Positions 1 to 12,969 of a stretch of 21,202 nucleotides of DNA are shown here, in pieces. The stretch is from a virus. The translations under genes and the position numbers were made by a program. Location: positions 1-21,202 of the IMG/VR virus record IMGVR_UViG_3300031753_000043; one strand, 5' to 3'. The notes below the pieces were generated by a model, which had not been told where the DNA came from, searched no databases, and saw only the letters and a list, made by a program, of their open reading frames with translations. The number at the start of each line of letters is the position of its first letter. Position 1 is the first letter of the stretch.

Positions 1-192
1 GACCTGCGACCCGACCTGCGACCAGACCTGCGACCGGACCTGCGACCAGACCTGCGACCCGACCTGCGACTCGACCTGCGACCAGACCTGCGACCCGACC
101 TGCGACCAGACCTGCGACCAGACCTGCGACCGGACCTGCGACTCGACCTGCGACCAGACCTGCGACCCGACCTGCGACCAGACCTGCGACCC
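1..192. repeat. 12-bp tandem repeat, 16 units
   Basis: Sixteen head-to-tail 12-bp units follow the pattern GACCTGCGA plus a variable triplet. In + strand order the variable triplets are CCC, CCA, CCG, CCA, CCC, CTC, CCA, CCC, CCA, CCA, CCG, CTC, CCA, CCC, CCA, CCC. The first nine bases are identical in all 16 units. The array starts at or before position 1 and ends where GACGTC begins at 193. It encodes x-S-Q-V repeats on the minus strand. Confidence 0.97.
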
Positions 193-444
193 GACGTCTT
201 TTTTGCTCAAAATCTCTCGCAAAAAAGCCCAGGCCAAAATCCCGCCGAGCGTCGCTCCATAGGGGCTGCCCATGCGCAGGATCACCTGCGGCCGCTTGAG
301 ATTGCACAGCGCATAGGCGCGCAGCGCCGCCTCGGTCGCAGTCTCGAAATCAGCCGGCTTCGTGGACAGGCCGATCTCGATCCATTTCTCGCACCAGGCC
401 GGGAGCTGCGCAGCCTGAGCAGCGGTCATCGAGTCGATGCGCAT
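1..444 (-). CDS. x-Ser-Gln-Val repeat protein, 3' end beyond window
   Basis: This is the last visible gene of the leftward operon. It reads in from an ATG at 444 and stays open to the window edge (148 codons seen, no stop). Residues 1-84 form a non-repetitive domain rich in Trp, Ala and Leu ([20 protein letters not shown], then [12 protein letters not shown] near 58-68). Residues 85-148 are 16 uninterrupted tetrapeptides x-S-Q-V with x = Gly, Trp, Arg or Glu. The N-terminal '[16 protein letters not shown]' pattern recalls DUF6745-type proteins of actinobacteria and phages, which I recall also carry short x-x-Q-V repeats; that match is from memory and not proven. The function is unknown. The stop of the upstream gene (447-449) lies 2 bases before this start, so the two are probably co-translated. 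A start at Met6 is also possible. Codon 1 of each repeat varies and the other three codons are invariant even at the base level. Confidence 0.8.
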
Positions 445-446
445 GG

Positions 447-779
447 TCAGTCCGCGACGCGACGCACTTCCTCGCCGCGTTCCTCGACTTGGTGGATCTG
501 TCGGTACAGGGCCCCGGCTTCCAGCTTGATCGCGGTGTGTTCTTCGTGCGTCAGCGCGGTGGCCTCGATTACTTGGATGAAGCGCTCGGCATCGGCCGAC
601 CAGAGGCGCACTTTCGGCGCGGCCTTGGTCTGCACGATGCGATGCGCGTGCCCGGTGACTTCTCCATAGGCCAGGATCACGTCCCCCTTGGGCGTTTCAT
701 CCTTCGCATTTTTAGGCAGCGCATCGACGCGTAGCAGGAGCACATCGCCTTGGCGTAGCAGAATCGGTGCTTTCTTCAT
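447..779 (-). CDS. Conserved phage-type protein with YGEVTGHAH motif
   Basis: A 110-residue soluble protein. The start is set at the ATG at 779 because AAAGGAAC lies just upstream; the open frame extends further 5' but lacks a comparable ribosome site. The N-terminus reads [15 protein letters not shown] (9-23), followed by [15 protein letters not shown] (34-48) and [18 protein letters not shown] (77-94). This combination ('QGDVL...YGEVTGHAH...HxxIxLxxGxYR') is a family I recognise from phage and actinobacterial genomes, but no function is established for it. The paired histidines in GHAH could bind metal (inference). It lies between an acidic 110-residue protein and the SQV-repeat gene, in one leftward operon. 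Confidence 0.85.
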
Positions 780-811: not shown

Positions 812-1144
812 CTACTCCTCGTTCTCCTGTTCCCTGATCTCGACGTACTCGCGCTCGACCTGCTCGCGCAGCCCCGGATCGTTCACCCGCCATTCGATGT
901 AGTCCTTACAAATGCGGCTAGCGTATTCCTGCGCTCGCTCGCACGAGTCAGGAGTGCCTGCGAACAGGCTGGCGACGATGAATGCCAGTTCGTCCGTATC
1001 GCAGTCGCCAACGAACTCGTCGAATGGTCCCTTCCGGTTCTCGGCCTCATCGCGTGCGCGTTCCTCGATGCGACTCTCGATATCGTTAAGCTCTGCATCC
1101 GTGAAGGTTGCCCGAGGGCCAGCATAGGCAGCGTGTACGGTCAT
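812..1144 (-). CDS. Acidic protein of unknown function
   Basis: A 110-residue, strongly acidic protein, probably helical in its second half (DELAFIVASLFAGTPDSCERAQEYASRI and a Glu-rich C-terminus ending EQENEE). The ATG at 1144 overlaps the stop of the upstream 68-residue gene in the sequence ATGA, and GGAGA lies 8 bases before it within the end of that gene. There is no recognisable domain. Its size, acidity and place in a leftward early operon next to the control region are compatible with a phage early protein that binds a host or DNA-binding partner, but that is only inference. Confidence 0.8.
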   Translation of the reverse strand: MTVHAAYAGPRATFTDAELNDIESRIEERARDEAENRKGPFDEFVGDCDTDELAFIVASLFAGTPDSCERAQEYASRICKDYIEWRVNDPGLREQVEREYVEIREQENEE

Positions 1145-1428: not shown

Positions 1429-1456
1429 AGTATACGGGTTTCCGTATCCTTGTCAA
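1429..1456 (-). promoter_or_regulatory. Leftward early promoter
   Basis: On the minus strand TTGACA (1456-1451) and TATACT (1434-1429) are separated by 16 bp. The expected transcription start is about 1422, next to the A of the ATG at 1421. The spacer contains operator 1. Confidence 0.85.
1432..1447. promoter_or_regulatory. Operator 1
   Basis: ATACGG-GTTT-CCGTAT is a perfect inverted repeat with 6-bp arms. Its core ACGG-N4-CCGT (1434-1445) lies in the spacer of the leftward promoter, with the last core base forming the first base of the -10 element. It should be bound by the adjacent Cro-like protein or a repressor. Confidence 0.75.
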
Positions 1457-2853: not shown

Positions 2854-3218
2854 TTGACGACGCCCTGCAATCCGCGATCGAGCGGGCACGAGCTCGAGGC
2901 CATGCCGGCGCGGAAGCTGCAGCCGAGCACGCGGATCTGGTTCATTCGAATTGGACAGAACGCGCGATCACGTATATCCACCTCTACGCGCGTCAGCATC
3001 CGTACCTGCGATGCGAACACTGCCGTGTCTGGGCCGAACACGATGGCCTTCCTCCGCCCACGGATAAGAGGGCATGGGGATGGGCAATTCAGGAAGCCAG
3101 GCGCCAAGGGCTGATCGAGCCTGCAGGCTACGAGGCCGCCATCTCGAGCAATGGCAGTCCCAAGGTGCGCTGGAAATCGCTGGTCTACAGCACGGGGTAC
3201 AGGGAGGATATCGAATGA
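2850..3218 (+). CDS. Winged-helix-like phage early protein
   Basis: A 122-residue protein. Residues 1-30 are Ala/Arg-rich helix; residues 38-75 (RAITYIHLYARQHPYLRCEH, then WAEHDGLPPPTD) and 76-112 (WGWAIQEARRQGLIEPAGYE, then SSNGSPKVRWKSLVY) follow a recurrent phage pattern in which an 'AWG..M..A...GLI...GY....SSNGSPK..W.SLVY' segment looks like a winged helix. DNA binding in replication or regulation is likely but not shown. The start overlaps the previous stop; AGGGAGG near its end serves the next gene. Confidence 0.78.
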   Translation: MIDDALQSAIERARARGHAGAEAAAEHADLVHSNWTERAITYIHLYARQHPYLRCEHCRVWAEHDGLPPPTDKRAWGWAIQEARRQGLIEPAGYEAAISSNGSPKVRWKSLVYSTGYREDIE

Positions 3219-3901
3219 CAGCTCGCAAACTTCATTTTCAGCGTATGTTGCGCTGCGGCGAAAGCGATGTGGCGTCGCATCCTCTGTTCCAAGGGGAAGG
3301 GGGCGGTTCGATTCCGACCTCGCCGCTCCAGTTTACTGTGATCCCGATCAACAAAGAGACAGCATTCCGAATCTACCGCGAATACCACTATTTGGGACGC
3401 CAGGACTTCGTTAATGTGGCAAGTTTTGGCGTCATGTGGGAAGGCTGCCTATACGGTGCGATCACTTTCGGGCCACCGGGCGCCAAGGAAACGGTCAAAG
3501 GTATTTTCGATACTGAAGAGCAATCTGGATTCTTTGAAATCAAACGATTGGCTATCGATAATCGATTTCCTAAAAACAGTGAGTCGAGGCTGATTCGGAT
3601 CGGTATTAAACTACTGCGACAACGTTTCCACGTCTTGGCCCTGCTAACTTACGCTGATCCGTCCGTGGGGCATGACGGGACTATTTACAAGGCTTCTGGC
3701 TTTCGATATCTGGGCCTGAGCGACAAGCGCCGCGAATTTGTGAAGGATGGGCGCGTGAAACAGCGCGGCGTTTCCAAAGGCGAAAATGGGAATTGGCGCG
3801 ACAAACCGCGCAAGCATGTCTTCGTCCGGTCCTTTGACCCCAGTATTGTGACAAATACCTTGCAACTGGGTTATCTCAAACGCAAGCAGGCTATAGCATG
3901 A
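3215..3901 (+). CDS. Mom-like GNAT-fold acyltransferase, putative DNA modification
   Basis: A 228-residue protein. The start at 3215 overlaps the previous stop and follows AGGGAGG. Motifs in order are HYLGR (58-62), GAITFGPPGAK (81-91), FEIKRLAIDN (107-116), SESRLIRIG (122-130), and TYADPSVGHDGTIYKASGF (145-163) followed by YLG. This set ('HYL.R', 'E..RL....P.N.ESR', 'YAD...GH.GT.Y.A..F.Y.G') is that of the phage Mu Mom family, GNAT-fold enzymes that modify adenine in phage DNA and protect it from restriction. The length is close to Mu Mom. An early-operon position fits protection of replicating DNA. The C-terminal 60 residues are very basic. The exact modification and whether the target is DNA cannot be read from the sequence. 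Confidence 0.8.
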   Translation: MTARKLHFQRMLRCGESDVASHPLFQGEGGGSIPTSPLQFTVIPINKETAFRIYREYHYLGRQDFVNVASFGVMWEGCLYGAITFGPPGAKETVKGIFDTEEQSGFFEIKRLAIDNRFPKNSESRLIRIGIKLLRQRFHVLALLTYADPSVGHDGTIYKASGFRYLGLSDKRREFVKDGRVKQRGVSKGENGNWRDKPRKHVFVRSFDPSIVTNTLQLGYLKRKQAIA

Positions 3902-4110
3902 GCGATTGGGACGATTGGTCGGCGCTCTGGCTCAAGGCCGACAAGCACCTGAAGACCGCCCAGGCCGCGGCTGCCCTGCACGACTTCGCCAATGCAGCCC
4001 GGGCATGCACCGAGGCCCAGGACATGCTCTGGCAGCTCCAGGAATGGTTCAGCGTGGCGATCGTTCAGGACCGACAACAGAAGCTTCCGGTCGACATGGA
4101 CCGCGAGTAG
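3898..4110 (+). CDS. Small helical protein of unknown function
   Basis: A 70-residue protein starting MSDWDDWSALWLKADKHLKT. It is Trp-rich at the N-terminus and predicted largely helical, with an Ala-rich middle (AQAAAALHDFANAARACTEA) followed by QDMLWQLQEWF; the layout resembles a two-helix hairpin. It overlaps the Mom-like gene stop in ATGA and is the last gene before the replication promoter, whose -35 lies inside its final codons. I do not recognise the family. Confidence 0.75.
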   Translation: MSDWDDWSALWLKADKHLKTAQAAAALHDFANAARACTEAQDMLWQLQEWFSVAIVQDRQQKLPVDMDRE

Positions 4111-4118
4111 GCTATACT
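4091..4118 (+). promoter_or_regulatory. Promoter of the replication module
   Basis: TCGACA (4091-4096) and TATACT (4113-4118) with a 16-bp spacer match the sigma-70 consensus closely. The transcription start is expected near 4125, giving a leader of about 80 bases before the TTG at 4206. Confidence 0.72.
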
Positions 4119-4127
4119 TTCATTGCC

Positions 4128-4205: not shown

Positions 4206-4871
4206 TTGCCGCGTGCACCGAATTACTTCAAGTTCCACCTTGGCGACTATGCCAAGGATTGCGAAGACCTAACCCTGCTCCAGCATGGGGCCTACCTAGC
4301 CCTAATTCGCTGGTACTACGCCACAGGCCGGCCAATTCCCGCCGATGGCGAACGCATCTATCGACGCTGCCATGCGCTCTCAGGCGAAGAAAAAGGCGCA
4401 GTTATGTTTGTTTTAACTGAGTTTTTCCAGCTTGACGGCCCGGTTTGGCGGCACCGCAGAATTGACCGCGAACTCGCTGAATGGTCAGACCGAAGTGACG
4501 AAGCTTCAGCGTCTGCCAAGGCAAGATGGAATAAAATCAACGATAATGGCAATGCGAACGCAATGCGAACGCAATGCGATGGCAATGCTAACCAGAACCA
4601 AGAACCAAGAACCAGAAGGTTAGGTTCTGTATCAGAGAATACGTTACGTCCGGTGCGGTTACGCGCTACGCGCTTACCGCCGGACTGGCGCCTACCCGAC
4701 GAATACAAAGACTTCGCCGTCAAAGTCCACCACCTCGAGCCCGAGCGTGCCGTCCGCGTATCCTTGGCCTTCCGCGATTATTGGATCGCCAAACCCGGGG
4801 GGCAGGGAACAAAGCTCGACTGGTTTGCGACGTGGCGAAACTGGATACGCAAGGAGACCCACGATGCTTGA
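4206..4871 (+). CDS. YdaU/DUF1376-like replication protein with DnaT-like C-terminus
   Basis: A 221-residue protein. The TTG at 4206 is chosen because GGAGG lies just upstream and the conserved domain begins at once: NYFKFHLGDYAKDCEDLTLL (6-25), QHGAYLALIRWYY (26-38), and IDRELAEW (86-93). This is the DUF1376/YdaU domain of phage replication proteins. Residues 114-140 are a low-complexity Asn/Arg linker. Residues 157-215 (LPPDWRLPDEYKDFA, then FRDYWIAKPGGQGTKLDWFA and WRNWIRK) match the C-terminal DNA-binding segment of DnaT-like primosomal proteins. It probably recognises the origin and recruits the host replicative helicase. The linker DNA carries iterons, as in lambda O. It has its own promoter and structured leader. 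Confidence 0.85.
   Translation: MPRAPNYFKFHLGDYAKDCEDLTLLQHGAYLALIRWYYATGRPIPADGERIYRRCHALSGEEKGAVMFVLTEFFQLDGPVWRHRRIDRELAEWSDRSDEASASAKARWNKINDNGNANAMRTQCDGNANQNQEPRTRRLGSVSENTLRPVRLRATRLPPDWRLPDEYKDFAVKVHHLEPERAVRVSLAFRDYWIAKPGGQGTKLDWFATWRNWIRKETHDA
4525..4628 (+). other. Candidate replication origin (iterons inside the initiator gene)
   Basis: An AT-rich stretch at 4525-4548 is followed by four tandem 11-bp units: GCAATGCGAAC (4549-4559), GCAATGCGAAC (4560-4570), GCAATGCGATG (4571-4581) and GCAATGCTAAC (4582-4592). Three 7-bp units of the AAGAACC type follow (4593-4613), and then an inverted repeat AGAACC/GGTTCT (4608-4613 with 4623-4628). Because 11 is not a multiple of 3, the repeat is not conserved in the protein, so selection must act on DNA. 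Lambda has its origin in the same place, between the two domains of O. Confidence 0.65.
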
Positions 4872-6453: not shown

Positions 6454-7762
6454 GCAAGCCCTAGCGCTGCTCTACGATTGGTCATTCTGGGCGCGTCCTT
6501 CGCAGTTAGCCCCGCCTGAATTCGCCGCCGGCAACAAGACCTACTGGATTTTGATGGCCGGTCGTGGCTTCGGCAAAACTCGTGTCGGCGCCGAGCAAGT
6601 CCGTGCCTGGTCGCGCACATCGCGCTACGTCAATCTCATCGGTCCGACGCTTGACGATGCTCGAGACATCATGGTCGAGGGCGAATCCGGCATTCTCGCT
6701 ATCTGCCCCAAACACGAACGGCCGCGGTTCGTCGAGCGCCAGCTCCGTTGGCCCAATGGCTGCAAATCGCTGATTTTCACGGCTGACGAACCGGAGCGAT
6801 TGCGCGGCAAGCAGCACGAAAAGGTATGGGCCGAGGAAGTGGGCTCATGGCGCTATGCCGAATCTTGGGATCAACTCCAGTTCGGGCTAAGGCTTGGCAA
6901 CAGTCCGCAAGCGGTCATCACGACCACGCCGCGGCCGACGCAGATCATCAAGCAAATAATCGCCGATCCGTCGTGCGTGATCACGCGTGGCACGAGCTAC
7001 GAGAATGTTGCCAATCTTGCCGAGGCCTTCTACAAGTCTGTGGTGAGGCGTTATGAGGGAACACGACTCGGTCGTCAGGAACTCAATGCGGAATTACTCA
7101 CCGATAATCCTGCGGCCCTTTGGAATCGCACCGCTATCGATGAGCTGCGCGTGCTTGTTGCGCCTAAGCTTAAACGCCTCGTTATCGGGCTGGACCCGGC
7201 AGTTACTTCGCGCGAGGACAGCGCTGAGACTGGCATCGTCGCTGCCGGAATCGGGACCGACGACCACTACTACGTCATCGCCGACAAGTCGCTGATCAAC
7301 ACGCCTGATGCCTGGGCGAGACAGGCGATCAAGCTCTATCACGACGTCAAAGCTGATCGCATCATCGGCGAAGTGAACAATGGCGGCGATATGATCGAGT
7401 CGCTGTTGCGCAATGTCGATCCGAACGTGAGCTATGAGTGCGTGACGGCTACCCGCGGCAAGATGATCCGCGCCGAGCCGGTTGCGGCGCTATACGAGCA
7501 AGGACGCGTTCATCATGTGGGCTCGTTTCCAGAATTGGAAGATCAAATGTGCGACTACGATCCGCTCACTGCCGAGCGCAGTCCGGACCGCATGGACGCG
7601 CTGGTTTGGGCAATGACCAAATTATCAGACAGGACGGGAACCGCGATACTCGACTACTACGCAATGCAAGCTAAAGCAGCGCAGGCCGGCAACGCGCATA
7701 TTTTCCAGCCGCCAACGGTCCAGCGCACCGACGAAGGTCTGCAATTTCCGGTGAGGACATAG
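6299..7762 (+). CDS. Terminase large subunit
   Basis: A 487-residue DNA-packaging motor. The ATPase has Walker A AGRGFGKT (87-94), Walker B KVWAEEVG (175-182) and a coupling motif TTTPRP (208-213). The nuclease has acidic residues at Asp299 (VIGLDPA), Glu358 ([10 protein letters not shown]) and Asp433 (DRMDALVWA), the three expected metal ligands. The type resembles COG5323/Terminase_6-like large subunits. The start is uncertain: conserved sequence begins near residue 42 ([20 protein letters not shown]), while the possible starts are ATG 6299, GTG 6308 and TTG 6362, all deep inside the small-subunit gene and none with a clear ribosome site. It cuts concatemers and fills the prohead through the portal. 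Confidence 0.95.
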
Positions 7763-7763
7763 C

Positions 7764-8144
7764 ATGGCAAACGTAACATTCAAGGCGCCTGCAGGACTGT
7801 TCCAAGTCCTGGGGCGGAACGGGGTGTTCTATCCCGTTATTAATGGTGTGGTGACTGTGCCTGAAGGCGCAGCCCCGCCCGCACTGTCTGGCAACGCGCT
7901 CTTGCGCGGCTACAATCTTGGCGTCGGTGCGACAGGTGCAACAGGCCCTGTCGGCAATACCGGCGCGGTTGGAGGCACGGGCGGAACAGGCGGAACTGCC
8001 GCAGCCGGCGTCACAGGCGTGACAGGACCCACGGGCGCATCAGGCGGATCGAATACCGGCAACACGGGTGCCACTGGTGCAACGGGTGCCGGCACGACGG
8101 GCGCAACTGGGTCAACTGGGCCAACTGGCGCAACCGGACCATAA
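7764..8144 (+). CDS. Collagen-like structural protein 1
   Basis: A 126-residue protein. Residues 1-51 ([20 protein letters not shown] and so on, ending LLRGYN) are a small N-terminal domain shared with the next two genes. Residues 52-126 are Gly-x-y triplets dominated by GAT, GPT, GNT and GGT. GAGG lies 9 bases before the ATG. Threonine in the third triplet position is typical of bacterial and phage collagen-like fibres. It may trimerise to form a fibre attached to the virion through the N-terminal domain. Its position between terminase and portal suggests a head-associated role, which is inference. Confidence 0.82.
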
Positions 8145-8156
8145 CGGGACACTGCG

Positions 8157-8537
8157 ATGACTACAGACAATGTAACGCTACAAGCGCCGGCATCGCCGGC
8201 ACCGCAGCAAGTCCTGGGCAAGGACGGTGCGCTCTACCAAGTCGCATCCGGCCAGCTTGTGATCAGTGCTTACGCTGCCGATGCAAGCCTGCTGTTCGCG
8301 GGCTACAACCAAGCGACCGGAATGACTGCAGCCACAGGCGCGACTGGGATCACGGGCGGAACTGGGATCCAAGGCGCAACCGGAAATACGGGCGCAGCGG
8401 GCGCTGTCGGCGGGACTGGCGGGACTGGTGGAACTGGGGGCACGGGCGGCACTGGCGGAGTAACCGGCGCAGCGGGTGCAACGGGATTGAATGCAGCGAC
8501 AGGCGCAGCGGGTGCGACTGGCGCAACAGGAGCATAG
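8157..8537 (+). CDS. Collagen-like structural protein 2
   Basis: A 126-residue paralogue of the preceding gene. The N-terminal domain ([20 protein letters not shown], then [12 protein letters not shown] and LLFAGYNQ) aligns with gene 1 at 'VT..AP....VLG.(D/N)G..Y.V..G...........LL..GYN'. The C-terminal half is Gly-x-y triplets with a run of consecutive GGT triplets. The two genes are separated by only 12 bases. Duplication followed by divergence of the N-terminal domain, with the triplet region free to expand and contract, explains the pattern. Confidence 0.82.
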
Positions 8538-8539
8538 CA

Positions 8540-9013
8540 ATGGCGAACGAAGGCCCTCCGTTTTCTCAGAACATCGCGATTCAATCGCCGCTGCCGCAGA
8601 ATCCGAATGTCACCCTGCAACCGCCGTCTGGCATTAATGTGCTCGTTGCGGCCGATGGCAAGACGTACACGAGTTCGGGTGGCGTGTTCGTGCTGCCCTA
8701 TCTCGCGCTCGGGCGCGGCGGTGTGGCTGGCCTGCTCGAGCAGGGATGGAATCAGGCTGATGGCCCAGTCGGCGCGTTTGGGGCTACCGGCGCGGTCGGA
8801 ACTACGGGCGTTACTGGCGGCTCTGGCGCGGTCGGCAATACGGGCAGCACGGGTGCGACTGGCGCGATCGGTGTCAATCCGAATCCGACGGGTGCGACGG
8901 GTGCAACCGGATCGGCGAGCACGGGCGCTACCGGGGCAGTTGGTGGAACGGGCGGCACTGGATTTGCGCTGCCTCACTTCCCGCCTAATCTCGGCACCAA
9001 GACGGCGGTCTGA
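8540..9013 (+). CDS. Collagen-like structural protein 3
   Basis: A 157-residue protein and third member of the set. It has an extra N-terminal segment ([20 protein letters not shown]), then the shared domain ([20 protein letters not shown] and LLEQGWNQ) and Gly-x-y triplets from about residue 75, interrupted by VNPNP. Unlike its relatives it ends with a non-collagen tail, [14 protein letters not shown], that could act as a cap or trimerisation tip. It begins 2 bases after the previous stop. It is most likely a virion fibre or decoration protein. Confidence 0.82.
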
Positions 9014-9015
9014 TC

Positions 9016-9180
9016 GTGGACGCGAACGAGAAGATCGACGAACTCATGCGCAAGATGCGTGAGTTGGAGGCGCGTGTCGACAAGCTTGAGCAGCGGCAGG
9101 CGCATGCCTTTGGAGATCTTGCAGCCAAGCCGCCTAATGGTGGCACGCTGCATCTGCCGCAAAAGGGGCAGCCACGTTGA
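9016..9180 (+). CDS. Short coiled-coil protein
   Basis: A 54-residue product from GTG 9016 (or ATG 9046). Residues 4-30 (NEKIDELMRKMRELEARVDK and so on) show a heptad pattern of Ile, Leu, Met and Val, typical of a short coiled coil, followed by a Pro/Gly-rich tail ending LPQKGQPR. It lies between the collagen-like genes and the portal gene, 2 bases after the stop of the former. It could be a trimerisation partner of the collagen-like proteins or a head accessory protein; neither is shown. Confidence 0.62.
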   Translation: MDANEKIDELMRKMRELEARVDKLEQRQAHAFGDLAAKPPNGGTLHLPQKGQPR

Positions 9181-9250
9181 CGCCTGCTGCTCAGAACGAA
9201 ACCTTGCCGGGCGAGCACGTCTACACCGCCCGCGAATTCAGGCCGCACTG

Positions 9251-9251
<1 letters not shown>
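9177..9251 (+). CDS. Possible 24-residue ORF
   Basis: A TTG at 9177 overlaps the previous stop (TTGA) and the TGA at 9249-9251 overlaps the portal start (TGATG). AGGGG lies upstream. The peptide starts MTPAAQNETLPGEHVYTARE and ends FRPH. The linked overlaps at both ends favour a real coupled mini-gene, but the size allows chance. Confidence 0.38.

Positions 9252-12969
<3,718 letters not shown>

Follow-up and report, generated by a model that had tools for sequence, protein, structure and literature searches.

Tetrapeptide Repeat Arrays Found in cis and in trans with DUF6745 Proteins and a Small Partner in Phages

A viral contig ends within a gene whose product joins an 84-residue N-terminal domain to a tandem array of xSQV tetrapeptides, and comparison with its relatives places this array in a phage module together with a DUF6745 domain and a small partner protein. 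The stretch analyzed, which we call the window, is IMG/VR virus record IMGVR_UViG_3300031753_000043 in its complete length of 21,202 bases; the array lies at its very end, so the 16 units seen are a minimum. Our preferred reading, held tentatively and at a little under an even chance, is that the array is a multivalent, largely unstructured or conditionally folded sticky domain of a two-gene phage module, with a copy number that can be adjusted. The evidence comes from the codons of the units, from their turnover, and from genomes in which the repeats occur as separate genes.

Translation confirms the 16-unit array that an earlier note had read at this contig edge, as well as its order of variable residues, which from the N to the C terminus is G W G W E R W W G W E G W R W G. 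The open reading frame (ORF) starts at an ATG on the minus strand and runs from position 444 to position 1 and off the contig, in keeping with the claim that the array continues past the window; it encodes 84 residues followed by the 16 units, all 16 of them in frame and uninterrupted. Tandem Repeats Finder reports positions 1-195 as the top-scoring array of the window (period 12, 16.2 copies, score 313). The units themselves span 1-192, and positions 193-195 hold one extra GTC codon. Each of the 16 units has TCG-CAG-GTC as codons 2-4, and codon 1 is TGG seven times, GGG five times, and GAG and CGG twice each. The nine identical bases described earlier are indeed constant, but the third base of codon 1 has to be added to them, which makes 10 of 12; all differences fall at the first two bases of codon 1, so that the claim to this effect holds across all 16 units. 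Several frames are open across the array because the period of 12 is a multiple of 3. The minus-strand frame is taken as the correct one because its N-terminal residues are conserved among relatives, with 21-71% identity to the window domain in an alignment of 27 sequences (A2).

Table 1. Coordinates of the array gene and its surroundings in the window, and of the split module on the 368,758-bp phage contig G001 (IMGVR_UViG_3300025162_000016)
Feature	Location	Positions	Strand	Basis or remark
xSQV array, at least 16 units (NNG TCG CAG GTC)	window	1..192	-	Tandem Repeats Finder and translation; open at contig edge
N-terminal domain of DUF6745-type protein, 84 residues	window	193..444	-	shared by relatives; AlphaFold2 model of L079 mainly helical here
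Partner, 110 residues, phrog_27831	window	447..779	-	2 nt lie between its end and the DUF6745 start codon
ORF upstream of partner, 110 residues	window	812..1144	-	ORF list; family search
Sigma-70-like site TTGACA-16-TATACT, 11/12, facing the array gene	window	1429..1456	-	consensus match only; candidate promoter
Free-standing N-terminal domain gene	G001	336608-336919		
Micro-genes	G001	from 337123; further ones past the C-domain gene to 349954; one more near 357,200		
C-terminal domain gene	G001	339621-340625		
Partner gene	G001	about 357,723-358,055		

A scan of IMG/VR with the 148-residue window fragment returned 49 distinct viral loci, and a second scan with an alignment of C-terminal domains (A3) returned 38, many on contigs already found; the A3 scan also placed two DUF6745 loci in bacterial genome bins. 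In complete relatives, 3 to 62 units stand between the N-terminal domain and a C-terminal domain that matches Pfam DUF6745 (PF20530), which was present in six of the six full relatives scanned (best E 5.5e-47, L003). Both terminal domains lie in a single ORF in 45 complete genes on unique contigs, and array length across DUF6745 relatives is 0 to 62 units. Window residues 1-82 gave no Pfam match at E ≤ 1, since the Pfam model spans the C-terminal domain only, and residues 1-148 gave no PF20530 match, the C-terminal domain lying past the contig edge. The tie to DUF6745 made in the earlier note thus stands for the whole protein, as seen in its relatives, whereas residues 1-84 are not themselves the Pfam domain. 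Named records with an array are gene 38 of Mycobacterium phage prophiGD102-1, two Nocardia farcinica NCTC11134 plasmid records, and phage record MW202476. Arrayless named proteins come from Microcystis phages (Ma-LMM01 and relatives), Streptomyces fungicidicus, Nostoc HK-01, Nonomuraea, and a Mycolicibacterium plasmid. The N-terminal domain is common to phage and bacterial members, and the arrayless bacterial and Microcystis phage members examined differ from the window type in having an ordinary segment of ∼70-120 residues at the place of the array. DUF6745 was found in 2 of 385 genomes from the class of the genome that holds L051, one being that genome itself; in the other (L118, 2-1917) the partner lies directly upstream, and no array was seen in the DUF6745 gene.

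Weak matches over the repeats only, to MSCRAMM (NCBIfam) and to YpjP and DUF4816 (Pfam), were dropped as low complexity. An otherwise typical DUF6745 protein with a partner (L060, 4023-5636) carries a degenerate array in another alphabet (KSHVLGQVQSHVASNV...). There is also an SQV-like match to the window protein on Vibrio harveyi plasmid pvh3 (L093, 3001-3297); the plasmid stretch examined gave no DUF6745 or partner profile match.

The second gene of the module is the partner. The window copy matches phrog_27831 at E 1.9e-11, with the longer window ORF 447-893 as query, and three of its relatives match that family at 4e-9 to 1e-16; a link between the family and DUF6745 was not found in the sources examined. 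Its residues RQGDVLL...GEVTGHAH...HEEH...VAD follow the pattern of the partner alignment, RQGDV...GE.TGH.H...HEEH...G.Y...V.D. A partner profile run over the ORFs of the fetched loci placed a copy beside nearly every DUF6745 gene. In 41 of the 45 complete genes a same-strand partner lies no more than 200 bp away, upstream in 18 and downstream in 23, never on both sides. The four without one are L031, which is cut at its 5′ end and has a near-twin, L024, that does carry the partner, and the plasmid-borne L100, L101, and L103. Thirty further loci in which only the C domain was detected lie outside this count; a partner stands within 200 bp downstream in 13 of these. Gene order is swapped between lineages but adjacency is kept, a pattern in the sequences that points to a functional pair. 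The AlphaFold2 model of the partner is all-beta (mean pLDDT 83) and has no Foldseek match in the PDB at E ≤ 0.001, and Pfam searches of 12 members gave DUF5725 alone, at E 0.019 in 1 of the 12. Upstream of the window partner, ORF 812..1144 matched no family in Pfam or PHROG searches and is probably in the same transcription unit as the array gene. A small HTH-like protein, recognized by eye, is encoded on the plus strand at 1533-1712, divergent from the candidate promoter.

Across 65 arrays of at least six units (1487 units; eight sources with fewer units were skipped), the first residue is W in 388 units, G in 365, R in 354, and E in 253, together 1360 of 1487, and codon 1 ends in G in 1434 of 1487. 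As TGG is the only Trp codon, homogenization with Trp units would account for the G kept at this base in every unit type. For the count of variation per base, 12 of the 65 arrays (near-copies or imperfect) and all end units were dropped. In the 37 xSQV-type arrays (735 inner units, position 2 mostly Ser), the non-modal bases at the 12 positions number 373, 201, 1, 6, 5, 8, 0, 0, 1, 0, 0, and 6, that is, 574 at the first two bases of codon 1 versus 27 at the other ten. In the 16 arrays left (489 units), where x[AD]QV predominates, bases 1 and 5 account for 250 and 202 non-modal bases, bases 2, 3, and 4 for 38, 19, and 20, and the remaining positions together for 18. Variants at base 1 of codon 1 include T, C, G, and A.

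The codons for Ser, Gln, and Val are near-uniform within an array, unlike between arrays, where the sets TCG-CAG-GTC, TCG-CAA-GTT, TCT-CAG-GTG, and AGC-CAA-GTT occur, along with AGC-CAA-GTG or AGT-CAA-GTA where position 2 is mixed. The Arg codon is likewise unmixed (CGN or AGG) in 49 of the 50 arrays with at least two Arg residues, the exception being L094 (1 and 4). A tree of 51 C-terminal domains, in which many branches are weak and one long branch was flagged, calls for at least 8-11 changes of this codon. Even L023 and L045, which are sisters on this tree, have units that differ in their Ser, Gln, Val, and Arg codons. Whole arrays are thus re-founded or homogenized faster than the flanking domains diverge, with the same few residues returning every time. 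This pattern, with near-identical genomes that differ by whole units, supports the recent expansion or homogenization proposed in the earlier note.

A mutational hot spot set by the flanking DNA is unlikely, as the flanking codons vary between arrays, and a DNA-level element is not favored, since the unit DNA varies at silent sites between arrays and the residues recur. Where Ser at position 2 gives way to Ala or Asp, Glu is largely gone from position 1 and the acid is found at position 2. Alternative backbones are x[DG]QL (L090), x[AD]SV (L016), and xSSL (L094), and W, G, R, and an acid at the variable site or sites are retained across lineages and across the xSQV, x[AD]QV, x[DG]QL, x[AD]SV, and xSSL backbones. 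From these sequence patterns we infer that selection acts on the protein, on its composition and unit number rather than on the order of its units.

Pairs of near-identical contigs show how arrays change. L012 and L013 have two differences in 9,409 aligned columns, namely a substitution where the array ends and a 36-nt indel equal to three units, and L024 and L031 differ over 6.5 kb by 216 nt (18 units) and two single bases; all four are metagenome contigs, and these length differences may reflect assembly collapse. Copy numbers of single arrays from metagenome contigs may likewise be collapsed and are approximate. An assembly artifact as the sole cause is unlikely, because named complete records hold arrays too, one of 46 units in a Mycobacterium abscessus prophage (L090) and one of 38 in a Nocardia farcinica plasmid (L091). 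Frameshifts within an array, to which the earlier note had looked as a sign against its reading, were found at two loci. In the Nocardia pair L091 and L092 there are five one-base C/G deletions, one within the array, and those of L092 are likely sequencing errors; at L084 (1-1376) the array that precedes the DUF6745 domain is spread over three reading frames, as a result of either assembly error or decay. On/off phase variation was rejected, the unit being 12 bp and the length differences between twins 36 and 216 nt. The window also holds a repeat of another kind, an 11-bp sequence in four copies within an ORF (4549-4592), in which a change in copy number would shift the frame.

Whether the units add up to an ordered structure bears on a rival explanation, in which they form a solenoid surface or an ordered recognition code like those of modular binding proteins, with one variable residue per unit and recombination making new specificities. 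One or two variable sites per unit against a strictly constant remainder, a four-letter alphabet, and fast unit turnover are what such a code might look like. In the AlphaFold2 model of the relative L079 (35 aligned sequences), both terminal domains are mostly above pLDDT 90 (block means of the N domain mostly above 87), and the array (residues 102-183) is below 50 and drawn as a broken, low-confidence helix, a confidence that leaves a fold possible. The low values may reflect a poor alignment of the repeats rather than disorder, and Val at each fourth position is unusual for a disordered segment. The model offers no confident solenoid, and the repeats match only low-complexity solved repeats. 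Among viral models, that of L079 matches the DUF6745 protein of Microcystis phage LMM01 (E 7e-18). It has no Foldseek match in the PDB at E ≤ 0.001; VIA-align 2 against the PDB gave best Z values of 3.4 and 3.6 for the DUF6745 and partner models, which are uninformative, and a sequence search of solved structures gave low-complexity or chance matches only. The order of the variable residue, examined by autocorrelation in 48 of the 65 arrays (17 were left out as near-copies, imperfect, or under 10 units), is close to random, with a largest |z| of 3.2 among 128 comparisons and weak deviations in the form of a W-W excess at lag 3 and a W-R excess at lag 2. On these grounds an ordered ladder or coil is not favored. 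Near-randomness would be expected of a code too when unrelated arrays are compared, and the recognition code as a whole seems to us decidedly improbable. The earlier suggestion that the variable codon is the functional surface therefore survives in that this codon is special at the protein level, and an ordered surface finds no support in the near-random order and low pLDDT.

The repeats also occur outside the DUF6745 gene. A scan for ORFs with period-4 repeats found separate repeat micro-genes on several contigs. Thirty-five of the 45 complete DUF6745 genes hold at least nine units, and micro-genes were seen in the examined flanks of none of these; the other 10 hold at most three units, and four of them (L046, L047, L088, L114) have micro-genes. 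L046 and L047 are nearly the same phage, so the four cases represent three phages, and with twins counted once the comparison is 0 of 35 long-array genes versus 3 of 9 with a short or no array (Fisher p 0.006), in a sample that is biased because several of the micro-gene contigs were found using repeat queries and with flanks that reach at most ∼8 kb per side. Arrays of none or three units are found in L019, L067, L088, and bacterial relatives, and 6 of the 10 genes with a short or no array have no micro-genes in the flank examined, which indicates that the repeats are not always needed.

The most clear-cut case is contig G001 (Table 1), on which DUF6745 is split into N-domain and C-domain genes. 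It carries 43 micro-genes of 53-181 residues in 12.8 kb, with an 8-nt overlap at 21 of 42 junctions; a looser filter gives 46, some of which are shadow frames. Among their 723 units, R (129) and W (127) are the commonest residues at position 1, S and D at position 2, Q at position 3, and V at position 4. The loci with this split DUF6745 and its 43 micro-genes are L106 (IMGVR_UViG_3300025162_000016, 335000-352500) and L107. On the related contigs L112 and L113 there are nine micro-genes each (MNQVWNQV...DDRL), at 3551-4123 (-) and 7150-9313 (+), with no DUF6745 or partner within the stretches examined. At L108 (4376-5898; contig 26375-27897), seven repeat-type ORFs, five by a stricter count, with overlaps of 1 or 4 nt, are followed by an arrayless DUF6745 gene and then by the partner.

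That the repeats are fused in some genomes and separate in others suggests that the parts work together and that the repeats are more than a spacer; judged from gene content, the array appears to be a domain in its own right that can be used in cis or in trans. This bears on a plainer explanation, that the array is a passive elastic linker and its turnover neutral replication slippage, which stays in frame simply because the unit is 12 bp. A linker would suit the range of 0 to 62 units and the existence of arrayless homologues, and it would fit a model without confident array structure and a near-random order of x. However, neutral homogenization should clear variation from bases 1 and 2 of codon 1 at the same pace as from the rest of the unit, against the 574 and 27 non-modal bases counted; the same residues recur under other silent codons and backbones; and separate gene families beside arrayless proteins would be unexpected for linkers. 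We regard a passive linker as unlikely.

Under the sticky-domain reading that we prefer, Trp and Arg (through cation-pi contacts), the acidic residues, and the regularly spaced Val would make many weak contacts, with Gly units spacing the units that make them. These contacts could be with the array itself or with a phage or host target, and candidate targets are a phage structure, a host factor, or a defense protein. The N- and C-terminal domains would anchor the array, the partner would work with the array protein, and unequal recombination between 12-bp units would tune valency with the frame intact.

Another explanation places the repeats in phage-host conflict, where, as a decoy or inhibitor, their many weak sites would soak up or block a host factor, with rapid turnover or gene amplification tracking the target. 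Consistent with such a role are the minus-strand site of the array gene, away from structural genes and near the HTH-like ORF and a Mom-like gene, the rapid turnover, the 43 diverged micro-genes in one phage, and the presence of the repeats on prophage and plasmid records. On the other side, the DUF6745 protein of L079, two partners, and two window ORFs match no known defense system apart from hits to the repeat region, and arrayless bacterial chromosomal and plasmid relatives exist. We give the decoy a small chance. A weak match to REase_II (PADLOC) over the repeats was dropped as low complexity. The Mom-like DNA modification protein is encoded at 3074-3901 (+) of the window (Pfam Mom E 9.3e-31), and four collagen-like Gly-x-Thr/Ala repeat ORFs lie at 7764-9013 and 11227-12969 (+), the first with a weak Pfam Collagen match and the other three judged by eye. 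In a more speculative combination, to which we assign a low probability, the repeats would be an evolvable phage peptide polymer of four-residue units, with a W/G/R/acid alphabet at one or two sites that recombination keeps rewriting, deployed either within DUF6745 or as a battery of dozens of overlapping micro-genes, and it would serve as a tunable multivalent binder or decoy of a host factor. Were that so, the 43-gene battery would be a repertoire generator.

Several known systems share features with the array. BACON repeat units of crAssphage are whole folded domains, whereas the window-type unit is four residues long and is also found as micro-gene batteries. TolA of E. coli is a bacterial envelope protein, and we know of no few-letter variable site or trans form for it. 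Sticker-and-spacer domains are the low-complexity domains of phase-separating proteins; the array differs from them in its strict four-residue period with Val at each fourth position. The likenesses are fast evolution at tandem repeats within a phage protein for BACON (PMC6949934), in-frame change of repeat number within a coding region for TolA (PMC3477136), and aromatic residues and Arg spaced by Gly and polar residues for sticker-and-spacer domains (compare PMC10881997). In the open-license PMC literature, which omits most subscription journals, we found no paper on DUF6745, and the papers there on phage tetrapeptide or tandem repeats, going by their titles and the starts of their abstracts, are not about this protein. 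As far as we have found, the module of DUF6745, partner, and repeat is undescribed.

These findings make a simple-looking repeat part of a conserved, widespread phage module that consists of DUF6745, a small beta protein, and a tetrapeptide repeat domain in cis or in trans. To our knowledge, the micro-gene battery of the one jumbo phage contig is an unusual gene arrangement. With two diverse bases against ten frozen ones in each unit, the arrays offer a clean natural test of selection against homogenization, and should the repeats prove to be binders, the number and make-up of their units would be ready experimental variables.
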